64,000 nucleotides of DNA from Synechococcus sp. MIT S9220 (GTDB lineage Bacteria; Cyanobacteriota; Cyanobacteriia; PCC-6307; Cyanobiaceae). A model generated the notes under the pieces. That model was not told the origin of the DNA, made no database searches, and saw only the letters and a list, made by a program, of their open reading frames with translations. The stretch is from positions 1,550,001 through 1,614,000 of the forward strand of contig NZ_CP047958.1 in assembly GCF_014304815.1 (NCBI RefSeq), written 5' to 3'. This document shows, piece after piece, positions 13,180 through 20,139 of this stretch (positions are counted from its first letter, which is position 1; the number at the start of each line of letters is the position of its first letter). The position numbers and the translations under genes are program-made.

Positions 13180-14211
<1,032 letters not shown>

Positions 14212-14245: not shown

Positions 14246-15475
14246 TCAGAACGTCCTTTCGAGCTGTTGCGTCTCAATCAAGCGTGCCAATGCTTGCTGG
14301 CATGTCCAACGCAATGGAACCCAAGGAGCAGATGAAGAGAGCTCGTACAAAAGATCCATCTGGTCATCAAGTTGCAGTTCAACGCAAGCCCAGGCAGCTG
14401 CAATTCTCGACTTCGTATATTGGGGCGTGGTTTCGGCAAGAGCAGACCTAACGAGATCACTCTTTTCTCTGAACTTTCGCAAACCAACAAGACAACTCAG
14501 ATAATAGTGAGTGACATAATCAGACCAGAGTCTTTCCTGCATACTTTCAATCACTGCAAGGCATTCGCTGCGATCAATCCGCATCAAACTCGCTGCAGCA
14601 CCATACTGTCGAGCTTCATCACGATGGCTGAGATTCCGCTCGATCTCATCAGGATCTGATCCACATTCCCACTCAGGTCGAATGTCTAACAACAAAGGAT
14701 CATCGCGAAGCAGCTGCTCAAACAAAGCTTGGTTTTGAGGCTTCGAGAAAGACTGGTTGCCATCAACGATCTGTAAGAAACTTTTAGCTCGAAGAGACAT
14801 GGATACCGGCGCACGAACCAGAACAGGCAGCAGGCTTTCATCACCGGAATCACCAATATCAATCACCGCAGATCTGCGCTTACCAGCAACCAGATCTGTA
14901 AGAGATGCGACCAATGGTTTCATCAAATCACATTCGCCATAAAGCGAAGCCATGTAAGCCCTTGCAGCGCCGGAGACCAGAAGACTTTCGTGATCACAAC
15001 AATCCATGATGCAAGACTTCGAACGAGGACTCTGAATTCCAAGCCTTGTAAATGTTTGAATGACTGCACGTATTTGTGTCACTTCCCCATTCAACAATCC
15101 AAGCAGACATCCTTCTTCTACCTCGCTGGGACGCCAGCCAATTCTGGTCAAGGCCGACAGCGCATTAATCACGGCCTCAGTGTCACTACAACCCAAAACA
15201 TCAACAAGAGCAGGGATGGCCCTTGGATCTTTTCTGCGACCTAAAGCCTCAACAACTTTTCGCCTGGTGATTCGGTCGAACAATTCATCGACTTTGAGCT
15301 CATGCGTCGCTCGAATTAAAGCCTCAAGGGTCATATCGCAATCACAAAGCCCTAATCGAGTCGCGGCAAAATAGCGATCTGAGGGTCGTTCAACAGAAGC
15401 TGTATCCGCAAAGATCAGCGATAGGGCATCAGCCTCTGATATACCTTGCACTAAAACATCAAAACGTTCTGCCAT
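14246..15475 (-). CDS. mpeZ: MpeZ-type phycobilin lyase(-isomerase) of the CpeY/MpeZ family, CA4-A island
   Basis: The 409-residue protein is built of HEAT-like helical repeats (examples: RRKVVEALGRRKDPRAIPAL, DTEAVINALSALTRIGW), as in E/F-type phycobilin lyases. Known biology: MpeZ attaches phycoerythrobilin to a phycoerythrin-II alpha cysteine and isomerises it to phycourobilin under blue light. The assignment to MpeZ rather than CpeY or MpeW rests on context: an FciC-like gene and tandem AraC genes lie immediately upstream on the same strand, the published composition of CA4-A islands. The coding DNA is visibly AT-richer than flanking core genes. Start: ATG 15475. CpeY, MpeY or MpeW remain alternatives. 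Confidence 0.75.
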   Translation of the reverse strand: MAERFDVLVQGISEADALSLIFADTASVERPSDRYFAATRLGLCDCDMTLEALIRATHELKVDELFDRITRRKVVEALGRRKDPRAIPALVDVLGCSDTEAVINALSALTRIGWRPSEVEEGCLLGLLNGEVTQIRAVIQTFTRLGIQSPRSKSCIMDCCDHESLLVSGAARAYMASLYGECDLMKPLVASLTDLVAGKRRSAVIDIGDSGDESLLPVLVRAPVSMSLRAKSFLQIVDGNQSFSKPQNQALFEQLLRDDPLLLDIRPEWECGSDPDEIERNLSHRDEARQYGAAASLMRIDRSECLAVIESMQERLWSDYVTHYYLSCLVGLRKFREKSDLVRSALAETTPQYTKSRIAAAWACVELQLDDQMDLLYELSSSAPWVPLRWTCQQALARLIETQQLERTF

Positions 15476-15540
15476 GTCTCAACAAACGCTTGAAAAAAGC
15501 TATCAAAAATAAAACTCAAAATCCCGCAAAAAAACAACTG

Positions 15541-15567
15541 ATATAATCACTTTTACTCATCTCACAA
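15541..15567 (-). promoter_or_regulatory. Possible mpeZ promoter
   Basis: On the minus strand TTGTGA (15567-15562) is followed after 15 nt by TTATAT (15546-15541), 66 bp upstream of the mpeZ ATG. The spacing is shorter than ideal, so this is a weak prediction. The whole 270-bp gap is AT-rich and free of other genes. Confidence 0.25.
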
Positions 15568-15745
15568 CCACGAACAGAAGCAAGACAGCGCTTCACAATT
15601 GCAGCAAAGCGACCAACAGGTGAGCAGAATTCATAAACACACAATTGCACAAAAGCATCAAATCAGCTGTCCGCACAGTCTTCCGACAAGAAACTGCAGC
15701 AGCCAGGGCTGAAAGCAGAGCTATTAAATCAGGCGACTTAAACGA

Positions 15746-15913
15746 CTACTTGGAGCGGCGATCAATCAATTCAATAAGATGGGCATCGTGCTTATTGCAG
15801 AAGTCAGTAACACACTCACGTAGGATATGACCAATAGAAACAGACTCGGTATAGCAAAGAAGCTTTAACTTCTTATGGAGTTCATCGCTGAGCTCAAACG
15901 TGACTCTTTTCAT
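15746..15913 (-). CDS. fciC: FciC-like small regulator (55 aa, ribbon-helix-helix-like)
   Basis: This short frame reads MKRVTFELSDELHKKLKLLC then YTESVSIGHILRECVTDF and a short tail. A basic beta-strand (KRVTFEL), a helix (DELHKKLKLLC) and a turn plus second helix (SIGHILRECVTDFC) form the classic ribbon-helix-helix DNA-binding layout. Published CA4-A islands contain a third small possible regulator, fciC, next to mpeZ and fciA/fciB, which matches this position, size and strand. The name rests on that context; I could not compare sequences. Three cysteines in 55 residues are notable. It lies 270 bp upstream of mpeZ and 234 bp downstream of the second AraC gene, so it may have its own promoter. 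Confidence 0.7.
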   Translation of the reverse strand: MKRVTFELSDELHKKLKLLCYTESVSIGHILRECVTDFCNKHDAHLIELIDRRSK

Positions 15914-16147
15914 TTGCAAGCAACTGACACGACAAGAGCGTGAAACACGAGAACGTCCTAATTAGCTGTATTTTAGATCTTTTGATAAGAAATGGATACC
16001 GGCAATCGTTCAGTTTACAAAGCTAAACAGCGATAATGCATGGTTTGAGCCTCCCTTCCTCAAGACGACACGAATGAATCAACAGACAGGGAATGCCTGA
16101 GAGCAGGCCTGACGCAACTAGCAAAACCCAAGCTGGATCCAGGAGCA

Positions 16148-17095
16148 CTACGCGTTTAGCAGAGTCTGACTGGGCAATTCTCCGAAGCTGTTGAAGTATC
16201 TACGGGCATAGCGTCCTGCATGCTTGAAACCATATTGAATAGCCACTTCACGAATCATGCTTTCTTCAGCTGCCGACTGATCCTGATATCTCAATAAAGC
16301 ACGTCTTGATTCTTCAAGACGGACTTGCATCATCATCTCAATAATTCCCATGCCAAAATATTTCTGGCACACTCTATAGAGTGATGCTTGGCCAGTATTC
16401 AGGAAATGGCAGACATCAGCCAATGTCATAGGAGAGGACATTTTCGTCGTGTCGTGAGACAGGCGAACAATCTCTGACAAGAGTGCATGATTCTTAGTTT
16501 CACCTTTTTTATAAGCACGAGGCTTACCATCTTCTAAACAACAAATAATGAGGTCATAATACTTCGAGGGATTAGATATTCCAGCTTGGAGATCTTTTCT
16601 TGCCAGCCTTTTAAGCTGATGACTCAATTGATCCGATACTTCCAGCCCCTTGTTGCTCGTCAAGTTTTCAATACCTACCTGAGCATTACAAGCAATCATT
16701 GCCTCCATTAACGAGGCTTTGTCAAGCATGCAAGCCGTCGAAGAGCAAAGTGGAGAATACTTTCCCCATGAACCACCCTTCGATCCATTGTAAGTATTCA
16801 AACCTCCAAGACTATTGGCTTTCATCTCATAACCTTCGCAAATCCCCATTGGAGCAAGCGAGTTTTTCAGCGGTGTGATCCAATTAAAGTCAACGGACCA
16901 ATCAGTCCCCCATCCCTCATAAAGGAGTGTTTTTGATGCCTTAATTTCTGCGATTGAAATTCCAGACGCCATGGAATGAGTCATGCTGTAGTTTCCAGCT
17001 CCAGAATCAAACTGTGTGATTCTGGTCAACTGACCCATCTCATTCAGTGTTTCCGAAATCTGCAGAGGGTCTGAATAAGGAAGAGATAATTCCAT
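16148..17095 (-). CDS. fciB: AraC-family regulator of chromatic acclimation (second of tandem pair, FciB-type)
   Basis: This 315-residue protein has a C-terminal AraC-type double helix-turn-helix: LADVCHFLNTGQASLYRVCQ (first HTH), then IREVAIQYGFKHAGRYARRY (second). The N-terminal sensor domain is not a known cupin and is collinear with that of the upstream gene (TLLYEGWGTDWSVDFNWI here; TLLYEEDANQNSVAFCWI there), showing tandem duplication. FciA and FciB are known to act in opposite directions on CA4: loss of FciA locks the green-light state and loss of FciB the blue-light state. The ATG at 17095 overlaps the stop of the first gene (TGATG). Which gene is A and which B is inferred from transcription order. 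Confidence 0.75.
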   Translation of the reverse strand: MELSLPYSDPLQISETLNEMGQLTRITQFDSGAGNYSMTHSMASGISIAEIKASKTLLYEGWGTDWSVDFNWITPLKNSLAPMGICEGYEMKANSLGGLNTYNGSKGGSWGKYSPLCSSTACMLDKASLMEAMIACNAQVGIENLTSNKGLEVSDQLSHQLKRLARKDLQAGISNPSKYYDLIICCLEDGKPRAYKKGETKNHALLSEIVRLSHDTTKMSSPMTLADVCHFLNTGQASLYRVCQKYFGMGIIEMMMQVRLEESRRALLRYQDQSAAEESMIREVAIQYGFKHAGRYARRYFNSFGELPSQTLLNA

Positions 17096-18126
17096 CAACT
17101 TCTGGACCTCAACAAATCCGAAACAAAGACTGTCGACTTACTTGCCGTCTCAATCGTTTCCTCGGGACTTTGGGAAAAAGTTCTAAAATACAATCGTTCG
17201 AAGGCATTCCAATTTTTAAATCCATAATATTCAGCATTGTTTTTCATCGTGAAATAACGCAGACCTTTTGGAACATGTGAATTCAAATATGATTTTTTAA
17301 CTTGTTCAAGCCTGATACTCTTAATCAATTCGAGGATGCTCATATCAAAATTTGACCGGCACACCTCGCTCAATGACTTCTCTTCTGAATTCAGGAATTT
17401 TGTAATCTCCCCAATCCTCAAGGGAGGCAAGCCCAATCGATCTTCGTGCAACAACTTAACGAGATCCTCAATCAGATCAGTTTGGTCAGATCGTTCCGTG
17501 ATGAGATTTTCATGATCAGAAGATTCTTCAAGCGTTGCAATCGCCAGATCGTAAAAAGCCTGCCCACATTTCAGTCCAAACTCAAAATGCTGTTCAAACA
17601 GACGCCTTAATTGATGAGTGCACTCACTCTCAGTATCAATTCCGATGCACTCTTCCAAACGAGCATAAGCGTTATAGGCATTCATTTGATCAATCTGATC
17701 CTTTAATTTTTCCCACTTCAAGCTCATACAGCACAACACTGTATTAGCACCAACAATGTCCCAAGTATTGCCACCCGCTTTATTCAAGCGGTTGAATCCT
17801 GCAATACTTGGGCTGCGCATCTTATGGCCGCCGATAATTGTACTGGAAACCGACTTCGTATCTTGCCCTCTAATCCAGCAGAATGCCACTGAATTCTGAT
17901 TAGCATCCTCTTCGTAAAGCAACGTCTGATTCGACTTAAAGACCTCTAAGTGGACATTCTTAATTGGCGCGCAAATTGAACTTGTTAGAAGTTCTCCTTT
18001 ACTCAACTGAGTAACATTACAAGAGAAATTAGACTTTGAAAAATATTCAGCGTAATGGTTCTGGCAATGCATTTCCATGCCAAGCAAATCGCCAAACACA
18101 TATTCTTTTGCCTTTCTTGCCTTCAT
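17095..18126 (-). CDS. fciA: AraC-family regulator of chromatic acclimation (first of tandem pair, FciA-type)
   Basis: The 343-residue protein has an unknown N-terminal sensor domain and a C-terminal AraC-type HTH region (IGEITKFLNSEEKSLSEVCR, then NNAEYYGFKNWNAFERLYFR). The second HTH is preceded by a longer linker than in its partner. It is co-transcribed with the downstream paralogue through a TGATG junction. The ATG at 18126 (MKARKAKEYVFG) is chosen; a TTG at 18147 is an alternative. The coding DNA is clearly AT-richer than core genes in the window, as expected for a transferred island. In the known system these two proteins control the island genes. The A/B letter is inferred from order only. 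Confidence 0.75.
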   Translation of the reverse strand: MKARKAKEYVFGDLLGMEMHCQNHYAEYFSKSNFSCNVTQLSKGELLTSSICAPIKNVHLEVFKSNQTLLYEEDANQNSVAFCWIRGQDTKSVSSTIIGGHKMRSPSIAGFNRLNKAGGNTWDIVGANTVLCCMSLKWEKLKDQIDQMNAYNAYARLEECIGIDTESECTHQLRRLFEQHFEFGLKCGQAFYDLAIATLEESSDHENLITERSDQTDLIEDLVKLLHEDRLGLPPLRIGEITKFLNSEEKSLSEVCRSNFDMSILELIKSIRLEQVKKSYLNSHVPKGLRYFTMKNNAEYYGFKNWNAFERLYFRTFSQSPEETIETASKSTVFVSDLLRSRS

Positions 18127-18438
18127 GTCTAACCGTAAGCTATTCAAACAAATTTCATTGAGATAAATCTATAATGAAGATCTTGAATCGTCAATCATTG
18201 AGTCAACTTTGAAATCAAGCCAGAGCAAATAGAAGACGCGACCTCAGCAAGCAACCCATGCGTTACAGTTGTTAAGAACAGGGCTTTAGGAGAAAGGACG
18301 CTTGCAGACGATCTGAAGCCACAACGCAAGAGCAGAATTCATAAATGCGAACTGACGCCAGTAATAACTGTAATTTTACGATTAGCCATCCATTGGATTC
18401 GCTTTTCCAAGTAAAGATATAGAAGAAGCCATCATTCG

Positions 18439-18762
18439 ATGAGCAAGGCAGCATTACACGCTTTCATCGACAGAGCCAGAGCCGATCAATCGTTCAGAGA
18501 TCAATTGTCGGAGCTCGGGCCTCAAGAGATCATTGATTTTGCAGCTCAAAGCGGCTTTGTCTTTTCCGACGAAATCAAGGGTCGCTTTATCAATCGCTGG
18601 GCTGGTGTTTATTTCTGCCCACAGGCCATCGAAGTGGGCATTCTTTGCCCTGGGTTAGTGCCAGAAGGGTATAAAAACCTTATCCACTATGCACAATCAA
18701 CTTGCAGTTCATCTGAATTAAAAGAAGAAGAGCACGATTTCAGATCCGGCAAAAAATACTAA
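18439..18762 (+). CDS. Nif11-domain-like small protein next to the CA4 regulators
   Basis: The 107-residue protein starts MSKAALHAFIDRARADQSFR and continues through IIDFAAQSGFVFSDEIKGRF. This helix-turn-helix-turn pattern resembles the Nif11/nitrile-hydratase-leader domain (residues about 1-48). The remainder is not a typical peptide-natural-product core: it has three cysteines (YFCPQ, ILCPG, STCSS) and no double-glycine cleavage site. It is divergent from fciA across a 310-bp AT-rich gap. Some CA4 islands carry an uncharacterised accessory gene in such a position; whether this is that gene cannot be verified here. Function is unknown. Confidence 0.65.
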   Translation: MSKAALHAFIDRARADQSFRDQLSELGPQEIIDFAAQSGFVFSDEIKGRFINRWAGVYFCPQAIEVGILCPGLVPEGYKNLIHYAQSTCSSSELKEEEHDFRSGKKY

Positions 18763-18997
18763 ATAGCCGCATTCTTTAATAAGGCCCAGCGATACAATCT
18801 ATTCATTCATCACAAGCAGATCATTGCTAATGGTCTGCTTGTTCTGGTCGCTTGTTATTTAGACGAAAACCACAATTGCCATGTTCAAAGCGTTGAACTT
18901 CGCCGATTGCGAATACTGAAGTGCTCTTAAAGCTGTTGATTATGAGCCAAGCGCTGTCCTTGATGCTGCAGTGTCTTTCCTGAAGAACAAGCAGCAA

Positions 18998-19023
18998 AAA
19001 GCCCCCTCGTGAGAGGGGGCTTT
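18998..19023 (-). terminator. psbA Rho-independent terminator
   Basis: A perfect 11-bp stem (AAAGCCCCCTC / GAGGGGGCTTT) with a 4-nt loop is followed by a short T-run on the minus strand, 40 bp downstream of the psbA stop. A second 9-bp hairpin (GATTCAGCT / AGCTGAATC, 19026-19045) lies between it and the stop, giving a double hairpin suited to a very strongly transcribed gene. Confidence 0.85.
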
Positions 19024-19062
19024 CCGATTCAGCTAAAGCTGAATCTCTTGGAGACTTCAGCC

Positions 19063-20139
19063 TCAGCCGATCGCGGGAGCTTGCAGAGCCACAGGAGTGG
19101 ACTCAACAGCAGCCAGGTCGAGGGGGAAGTTGTGAGCGTTGCGCTCGTGCATGACTTCCATGCCGAGGTTGGCGCGGTTCAGCACATCAGCCCAGGTGTT
19201 CAGGACGCGGCCCTGACCATCAAGGATGGACTGGTTGAAGTTGAAACCGTTCAGGTTGAACGCCATGGTGCTGATGCCCATGGAGGTGAACCAGATGCCG
19301 ACAACGGGCCAGGCAGCCAGGAAGAAGTGCAGGCTACGGCTGTTGTTGAACGACGCGTATTGGAAGATCAGGCGACCGAAGTAACCGTGGGCAGCCACGA
19401 TGTTGTAGGTCTCTTCCTCTTGGCCGAACTTGTAGCCGTAGTTCTGGGACTCGCTCTCGGTTGTTTCACGAACCAAGGAGGAGGTCACCAGTGAACCGTG
19501 CATGGCGGAGAACAGTGAACCACCGAAGACGCCAGCCACACCAAGCATGTGGAAGGGGTGCATCAGGATGTTGTGCTCGGCCTGGAACACCAACATGAAG
19601 TTGAAGGTGCCGGAGATGCCCAGGGGCATGCCGTCAGAGAAGGAACCCTGACCGAAGGGGTACACCAGGAACACAGCGAAGGCTGCAGACAGCGGTGCGC
19701 TGTAAGCAACGCAGATCCAGGGGCGCATGCCGAGGCGGTAGGAGAGTTCCCACTGACGCCCCATGTAGGCGGAGATGCCGATCAGAAAGTGGAAGACAAC
19801 CAGCTGGTAAGGACCGCCGTTGTACAGCCACTCGTCGAGAGAGGCAGCTTCCCAGATGGGATAGAAGTGAAGGCCGATGGCATTCGAGGAGGGAACAACA
19901 GCACCAGAGATGATGTTGTTGCCGTAGATCAGGGAGCCAGCAACGGGCTCACGGATGCCGTCGATGTCGACCGCGGGAGCGGCGATGAAGGCGATGATGA
20001 AGCAGACGGTGGCTGCAAGCAGACAGGGAATCATCAGCACACCGAACCAACCCACATAAATGCGGTTATTGGTGTCGGTGACCCACTGACAGAAATTTTC
20101 CCAACTGCCGCGGCGCCCGCTGCGGATTGCAGTAGCCAT
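19063..20139 (-). CDS. psbA: Photosystem II D1 protein, D1:1-type
   Basis: This is the D1 reaction-centre core subunit in the thylakoid membrane, which binds P680, the Mn cluster and QB. The 358-residue sequence has all family hallmarks, including [18 protein letters not shown] and the C-terminal [20 protein letters not shown] followed by a short extension removed by CtpA processing. The residue corresponding to position 130 is Gln ([10 protein letters not shown]), which marks the D1:1 isoform used under moderate light rather than the Glu130 high-light D1:2 form. Other psbA copies are expected elsewhere. It is monocistronic, with a long leader and a double-hairpin terminator. Confidence 0.98.

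Follow-up and report, generated by a model that had tools for sequence, protein, structure and literature searches.

An intact CA4-A chromatic acclimation island in Synechococcus sp. MIT S9220 and a candidate operator for its regulators

A stretch of 64,000 nucleotides of the Synechococcus sp. MIT S9220 genome (contig NZ_CP047958.1, positions 1,550,001–1,614,000; hereafter the window, whose own coordinates are used throughout) carries five genes at positions 14,246–18,762 that an earlier note, made from the letters alone, had read as a chromatic acclimation (CA4) island of type A. Two questions arise: whether these genes form a complete blue/green switch, and at which DNA site such a switch would be controlled. 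Sequence comparisons indicate, with a probability of roughly 0.9, that this is a complete and intact CA4-A switch lying between gap and psbA, in which MpeZ and MpeY would compete at MpeA Cys83 while FciA and FciB set the switch. The island type is already known, since the island matches the CA4-A island of Humily 2013; the new part is a candidate operator, the 16-bp element TATCCRNTTCTTAYCA, which precedes fciC. Loci and genomes used for comparison carry L and G numbers, respectively.

Identity of the island and its lyase

By definition, CA4-A islands have mpeZ as their 3′-terminal gene, after the co-directional fciA, fciB, and fciC; fciC encodes 55–67 residues with a ribbon-helix-helix, unk10 encodes a Nif11 protein of 107–118 residues and is reversed at the 5′ end, and the islands lie outside the phycobilisome region, often adjoining psbA or hli (PMC3877281). 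All of this is found here: mpeZ at the 3′ end, both fciA and fciB, fciC, a reversed unk10, a place away from the phycobilisome genes, and psbA alongside. Genes, order, and sizes are those of the published island, with no difference in core gene content (Humily 2013, PMC3877281). The components named in the earlier note (an MpeZ-type lyase, a 55-residue ribbon-helix-helix-like protein, two tandem AraC regulators, and a divergent Nif11 gene) are thus borne out by open reading frames (ORFs), Pfam, and PHROGs, and the assignment of the set and its order to CA4-A by orthology and the published layout (PMC3877281). In RCC307 (L009), which has been published as a CA4-A strain, gene content and order are identical and psbA again lies past unk10, but mpeZ has no gap next to it. 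The gene unk14, reported in 4 of 9 strains (PMC3877281), is not evident here, in that there is no separate ORF of 121–123 residues between fciA and psbA; DUF2237 was not searched for.

A CA4-B island (fciA, fciB, mpeW, unk10) shares the pair of AraC-type regulators, unk10, and the 16-bp element; however, it has no fciC, carries its MpeW lyase (Tyr-Gly) on the opposite strand, and lies inside the phycobilisome region. Gene content and place rule out this type here: there is no opposite-strand mpeW, fciC is present, and the island is outside the phycobilisome region. Location by itself is not strictly defining, because PMC10904595 permits a CA4-A island at the 5′ end of the phycobilisome region. 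In genome G297 (L104:111-16390), about 9 kb separate a CA4-A island from mpeY and phycoerythrin-II genes, so that a great distance from the phycobilisome region is not universal among such islands.

The lyase gene mpeZ (14,246–15,475, minus strand) encodes a predicted phycoerythrobilin lyase-isomerase of the E/F type, with 409 residues and HEAT repeats recognized by Pfam. A tree was built from 69 lyase rows (62 different), taken only from fetched loci, without loci judged to be duplicates (L007-L009, L011, L013, L014, L016) and without the CpeY row L023, which yielded no protein on translation. The island lyase stands in a clade of 25 MpeZ rows (support 100/100) that takes in RCC307 (G024) and excludes 8 MpeY-like, 11 MpeW-like, 19 MpeQ-like, and 6 CpeY rows; the concern that it might be nearer to CpeY or MpeW than to MpeZ is thereby answered in the negative. 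The MpeQ-like, MpeW-like, and CpeY rows can each be split off by a single branch, and the MpeY-like rows require two changes, with the long row L128 standing apart. Lyase rows of the phycobilisome region had been divided into MpeQ-like and MpeY-like by a residue next to a conserved tyrosine itself, and the 19 MpeQ-like rows so sorted stay together in the tree.

The nearest solved structure is that of MpeQ (7mc4; 422 bits over residues 1–399), which shares the stretch LWSDYVTHYYL around this residue pair, Y320/V321 of the island lyase being aligned to Y318/V319 of MpeQ. Isomerization by MpeQ has been attributed to Val319 next to Tyr318, and its lack in MpeW to Gly319 (PMC9705338). The pair is Tyr-Val in 25/25 MpeZ rows and Tyr-Gly in 11/11 MpeW-like and 6/6 CpeY rows. 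MpeQ-like rows differ from the island lyase in forming a separate clade and in having their genes beside phycoerythrin-II genes rather than in a CA4 island. Tree and residue pair together exclude MpeW, MpeY, MpeQ-like, and CpeY identities. In two loci (L015, L017), CA4-A genes and a Synechococcus-type MpeQ-like gene are found on contigs labelled Flavobacteriales and Deltaproteobacteria, which are probably mis-binned.

Three members of the lyase family are present in the host genome: the island gene, a 47% relative, mpeY, beside the phycoerythrin-II genes, and the 26% relative cpeY. The host mpeY is intact and carries the Tyr-Gly lyase signature. Because MpeZ has Tyr-Val and the host mpeY Tyr-Gly, the predicted products are an isomerase from the island and a plain lyase from the antenna region, which is the combination needed for CA4-A. 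MpeZ and MpeY act at MpeA C83 in blue and green light, respectively (PMC7948978), and mpeZ is described in the literature as rising in blue light in CA4-A. The three swing cysteines are present in the host (CpeA 139, MpeA 83, and MpeA 140), with Leu at CpeB-141 and MpeB-141; together with the intact mpeY, these residues fit the change in the phycourobilin:phycoerythrobilin ratio that the earlier note predicted. Leu at CpeB-141 agrees with MITS9220 and not with BIOS-U3-1 (PMC9705338), and genome G271 has His at this position, in agreement with BIOS-U3-1. In the mechanism proposed, whose activity and target are taken from the literature, MpeZ would attach phycoerythrobilin to Cys83 of the phycoerythrin-II α subunit and isomerize the bound pigment to phycourobilin, competing with MpeY, a lyase whose gene lies in the phycobilisome region; phycourobilin would win in blue light, when mpeZ would be on, and in green light MpeY would win and phycoerythrobilin would be kept. 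FciA and FciB, one as activator and the other as repressor (roles likewise from the literature), would set the switch.

Transcription on the minus strand would follow the order fciA, fciB, fciC, mpeZ, with unk10 divergent on the plus strand; all five ORFs are intact. The regulator gene fciA (17,095–18,147, minus strand; 350 residues as listed) overlaps fciB (16,148–17,098, minus strand; 316 residues as listed, 315 from the ATG) by 4 bases, and its start is likely an internal ATG at 18,126, giving 343 residues. Pfam recognizes the AraC domain HTH_18 in FciB (2.1e-12) and in FciA (2.4e-7, just below the curated cut-off). In quick trees of 18 CA4-A and 8 CA4-B rows per protein, with L108 omitted as its fciA has two stops, FciA groups with CA4-A orthologues with a Shimodaira–Hasegawa-like approximate likelihood ratio (SH-aLRT) support of 100 and FciB with a support of 86, below the 95 mark of the tool, each apart from the CA4-B rows; orthology to FciA and FciB, on which the island assignment also depended, is thus upheld. 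The CA4-B rows are less well supported, FciA requiring two changes and FciB reaching 58.

FciC (15,746–15,913, minus strand) has 55 residues and is 80–95% identical to CA4-A orthologues; its listed ORF begins at a TTG 6 bases ahead of the ATG, and its ribbon-helix-helix similarity is weak for Pfam RHH_1 (E 0.03) and clearer for Arc-like repressors of PHROGs (8.5e-6). FciC of RS9916 also has 55 residues (PMC3877281). The gene unk10 (18,439–18,762, plus strand) encodes a Nif11-domain protein of 107 residues (1.2e-8), and 41 of the 300 family genomes, the host included, contain a match to it. One further locus, in G147 (L107:4254-8976), has psbA, unk10, fciA, fciB, and fciC, with an intact element before fciC; mpeZ was not found there by search.

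A conserved 16-bp element before fciC

The element TATCCRNTTCTTAYCA (15,998–15,983, minus strand; TATCCATTTCTTATCA as listed for the candidate FciA/FciB operator at 15983–15998) starts 85 bp before the fciC ATG, and a −10-like hexamer, TAAAAT (15,975–15,970, minus strand), lies at a fixed distance from it; given a 17-base spacer, a −35 box would coincide with its first half. Within the element are direct TATC half-sites 11 bases apart. The copy before fciC is the sole exact copy in the host genome. The element is conserved in 19/19 CA4-A islands, whose consensus is TATCC R N TTCTTAYCAAA with TANNNT after it at a constant spacing, the first T, the A, and the last T of the hexamer being invariant in all of them. 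A 17-mer pattern derived from these islands gives 17 full matches, the host among them, and 2 with one mismatch; bases just outside the element vary.

Comparison with 16 other islands sets the region between fciB and fciC apart. Its best 16-mer has a mean of 1.19 mismatches vs. 5.56–5.81 in shuffles; the best 16-mer before fciA is moderate (3.94 vs. 5.25–5.44) and far from this value, and that before mpeZ is only slightly better than shuffles (4.06 vs. 4.44–4.81), with no comparable element there. A scan for σ70 promoters was uninformative (6 matches vs. 7.4 expected). NtcA, whose motif is GTA-N8-TAC, was rejected as a binder, as the letters of the element do not fit this motif when compared by eye.

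A survey of 300 family genomes, 26 with fciA and 274 without, ties the element to the regulator genes. The exact 16-mer occurs in 25 genomes, of which 23 are among the 26 with fciA and 2 among the 274 without (Fisher p 5e-29, which is not a clean probability because the genomes are related by descent). Nearly all element sites (25/28) fall within islands, and a reversed control pattern gave 3 matches in the 300 genomes. In a second genus of 34 genomes, 23 of which are also among the 300, an exact copy is present in 12/13 genomes with fciA and 0/21 without.

The nine CA4-B genomes, which took no part in the pattern, serve as an outside test, and 7 of them hold an exact copy (p 5e-11). There the element occupies the unk10–mpeW spacer and the region upstream of fciA, not the one upstream of fciC as in CA4-A. 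A scan of eight (G174 omitted) found two sites in each, about 37 and 17 bases before unk10 and 21 apart (20 in L121), with scores of 11.1–25.4 for the farther and 6.3–12.0 for the nearer copies; a further site lies 86–119 bases ahead of the aligned fciA start in 7/8. In 8/8 unk10–mpeW spacers and 7/8 fciA upstream regions, the best site scores above the 95% level reached by 200 shuffles, although weak copies alone prove little, since single shuffles reached up to 19.9. The five islands that have lost fciA and fciB score lower, at 19.0, 13.1, 1.2, 1.2, and −4.8 vs. 23.9–31.3 in CA4-A islands; the element is gone in L004-L006 and weakened in L090 and L091.

Possible owners of the element and the state of the island

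Taken together, these patterns make it somewhat probable that FciA and FciB both act via the element at 15,983–15,998, at the place expected for the −35 box of an fciC promoter. They are favored as binders, on balance, because they are common to both island types and because of the survey, the CA4-B sites, and the islands lacking fciA and fciB. AraC-type regulators bind direct half-sites in such a manner, and the half-sites found here are direct, conserved, and associated with the regulator genes across genomes, with exceptions in G101, G070, and G225 and in the weakened L090 and L091. The tandem AraC-family operators araI1/araI2 resemble both the direct half-sites of the element and the two CA4-B copies about 21 bp apart, but have another sequence, and CA4-A has one copy only, overlapping the −35 position. 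From this candidate operator, FciA and FciB would control fciC and, by read-through, mpeZ; the read-through is suggested because no strongly conserved element precedes mpeZ, which would leave a single likely control point before fciC. Whether the same operator serves both CA4 types stands at about even odds: one copy at −35 would drive fciC–mpeZ in CA4-A, CA4-B would rely on a pair of copies about 21 bp apart ahead of unk10/mpeW plus one ahead of fciA, and the opposite light responses would come from the arrangement of sites, not from the regulators.

Several observations weigh against this reading. Three genomes with fciA lack an exact copy, their island sites having one (G101), two (G225), or three mismatches (G070). 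The copies of L090 and L091 (19.0 and 13.1), without fciA and fciB, score inside the range of CA4-B sites, and a single event may account for the clear loss in L004-L006. In a scan of 17 CA4-A islands, mpeZ, fciA, and unk10 had no strong site ahead of them, so that the candidate operator explains no control of unk10, and mpeZ follows fciC at a distance of 270 bp. FciC might own the element instead, as it lies directly before fciC in CA4-A islands, small ribbon-helix-helix repressors are often self-regulating, and L090 and L091 keep fciC and a weakened copy without fciA and fciB. This is unlikely, however: CA4-B islands still carry the element without fciC (PMC3877281), and L004-L006 show the reverse, an intact fciC with the element lost. 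A little less improbable, though still doubtful, is that the element is a plain core promoter or binds a regulator encoded outside the island, and owes its conservation to the transfer of the island as one piece. The distance of the element from the TANNNT box is that of a −35 box, and the islands are related by descent; yet bases just outside the element vary, the CA4-B element stands before other genes in two copies with, by eye, no box at the same distance, and 0/15 genomes with unk10 but no fciA have an exact copy. Operation by FciA and FciB thus remains the preferred explanation of the element. Both regulators are reportedly analyzed in Sanfilippo et al. 2016, where the element, which was not found in the literature searched, may be described. 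A search within PMC3877281 gave no passage on such an element. Of FciA and FciB, one activates and the other represses according to the literature.

A separate alternative is that the CA4-A island, though still in place, has lost its switching function, being decayed or locked as in natural mutants already described. MVIR-18-1 and RCC307 have complete CA4-A islands and yet are incapable of CA4 (PMC3877281), which counts against the island being a working switch, and five related loci beside the same gap gene (L004-L006, L090, L091) are without fciA and fciB. Decay is nevertheless very improbable here: the five genes are intact, as is an mpeY with its lyase signature, the operator candidate is a full match, and two CRD1 strains with CA4-A islands have been studied as acclimaters (PMC10904595). 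The CRD1 strains BIOS-U3-1 and MITS9220 had a 495:545 nm excitation ratio stuck near 1.2 in high blue light (PMC10904595), and because of this plateau the switching may be of limited amplitude.

Genomic setting and exchange of islands

The island is flanked on the left by gap (13,207–14,211, plus strand), encoding type I glyceraldehyde-3-phosphate dehydrogenase (TIGR01534, 434 bits), and on the right by psbA (19,063–20,139, minus strand), encoding the D1 protein (TIGR01151, 762 bits), in agreement with the placement given in the earlier note. That note was also correct that this DNA is richer in AT than its flanks (GC 43.9% for 14,246–18,762 vs. 56.6% for the whole window): of 595 sliding windows of island size, the five lowest in GC all overlap the island, and the lowest fully outside has 51.7%. 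Its statement that the window has no phycobilisome structural genes agrees with a tblastn search, in which eight phycobilisome structural and linker proteins of the host had no match within the window at E 0.01; these genes lie at about 0.465–0.49 Mb, phycoerythrin near 0.47 Mb, and the island near 1.56 Mb. The island-side psbA is 94% identical, over residues 6–358, to the two other full psbA genes of the genome. Directly 3′ of it on the minus strand is a strong terminator-like hairpin (18,995–19,026; 14 pairs, then T-rich). Rfam gave two matches far under gathering scores near psbA and none on island genes.

The gap–psbA distance is 4.85 kb in the host and 96–294 bases on the island side in five of the 26 gap loci examined, which have no island at this place (L203, L206, L208, L210, L211). 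In G260, to which L206 belongs, the island is elsewhere (L092), between a complete and a partial copy of psbA, as in RS9916 (PMC3877281). Placement between gap and psbA is shared by G271, G289, and G277. In G289, G277, and the single-cell loci L004-L006, fciA and fciB are gone while fciC, mpeZ, and unk10 are kept. All five islands lacking fciA and fciB (L004-L006, L090, L091) lie beside the same gap gene, with the psbA side visible only in L090 and L091, and have the same architecture at the unk10–fciC junction. FciC is still conserved there, with a ratio of nonsynonymous to synonymous substitution rates (dN/dS), computed from the true ATG, of 0.03–0.19 over few sites in six pairs among L004, L005, L090, and L091. 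The gap tree places the host with L005 and L006 (100), whereas the fciC (97), mpeZ (100), and unk10 (100) trees place it with G271; because the gap and island-gene trees disagree, this suggests that island versions have been swapped between lineages at the gap site.

The host thus adds an intact island beside a gap gene next to which close relatives carry a version lacking the regulators. Should the 16-bp element prove to be where FciA and FciB operate, the way in which a self-contained island distinguishes blue from green light would have a concrete target in the DNA. It would then be possible to test directly why the response is to blue light in CA4-A and to green light in CA4-B, and the element might serve as a sequence marker separating regulated from locked islands in metagenomes.

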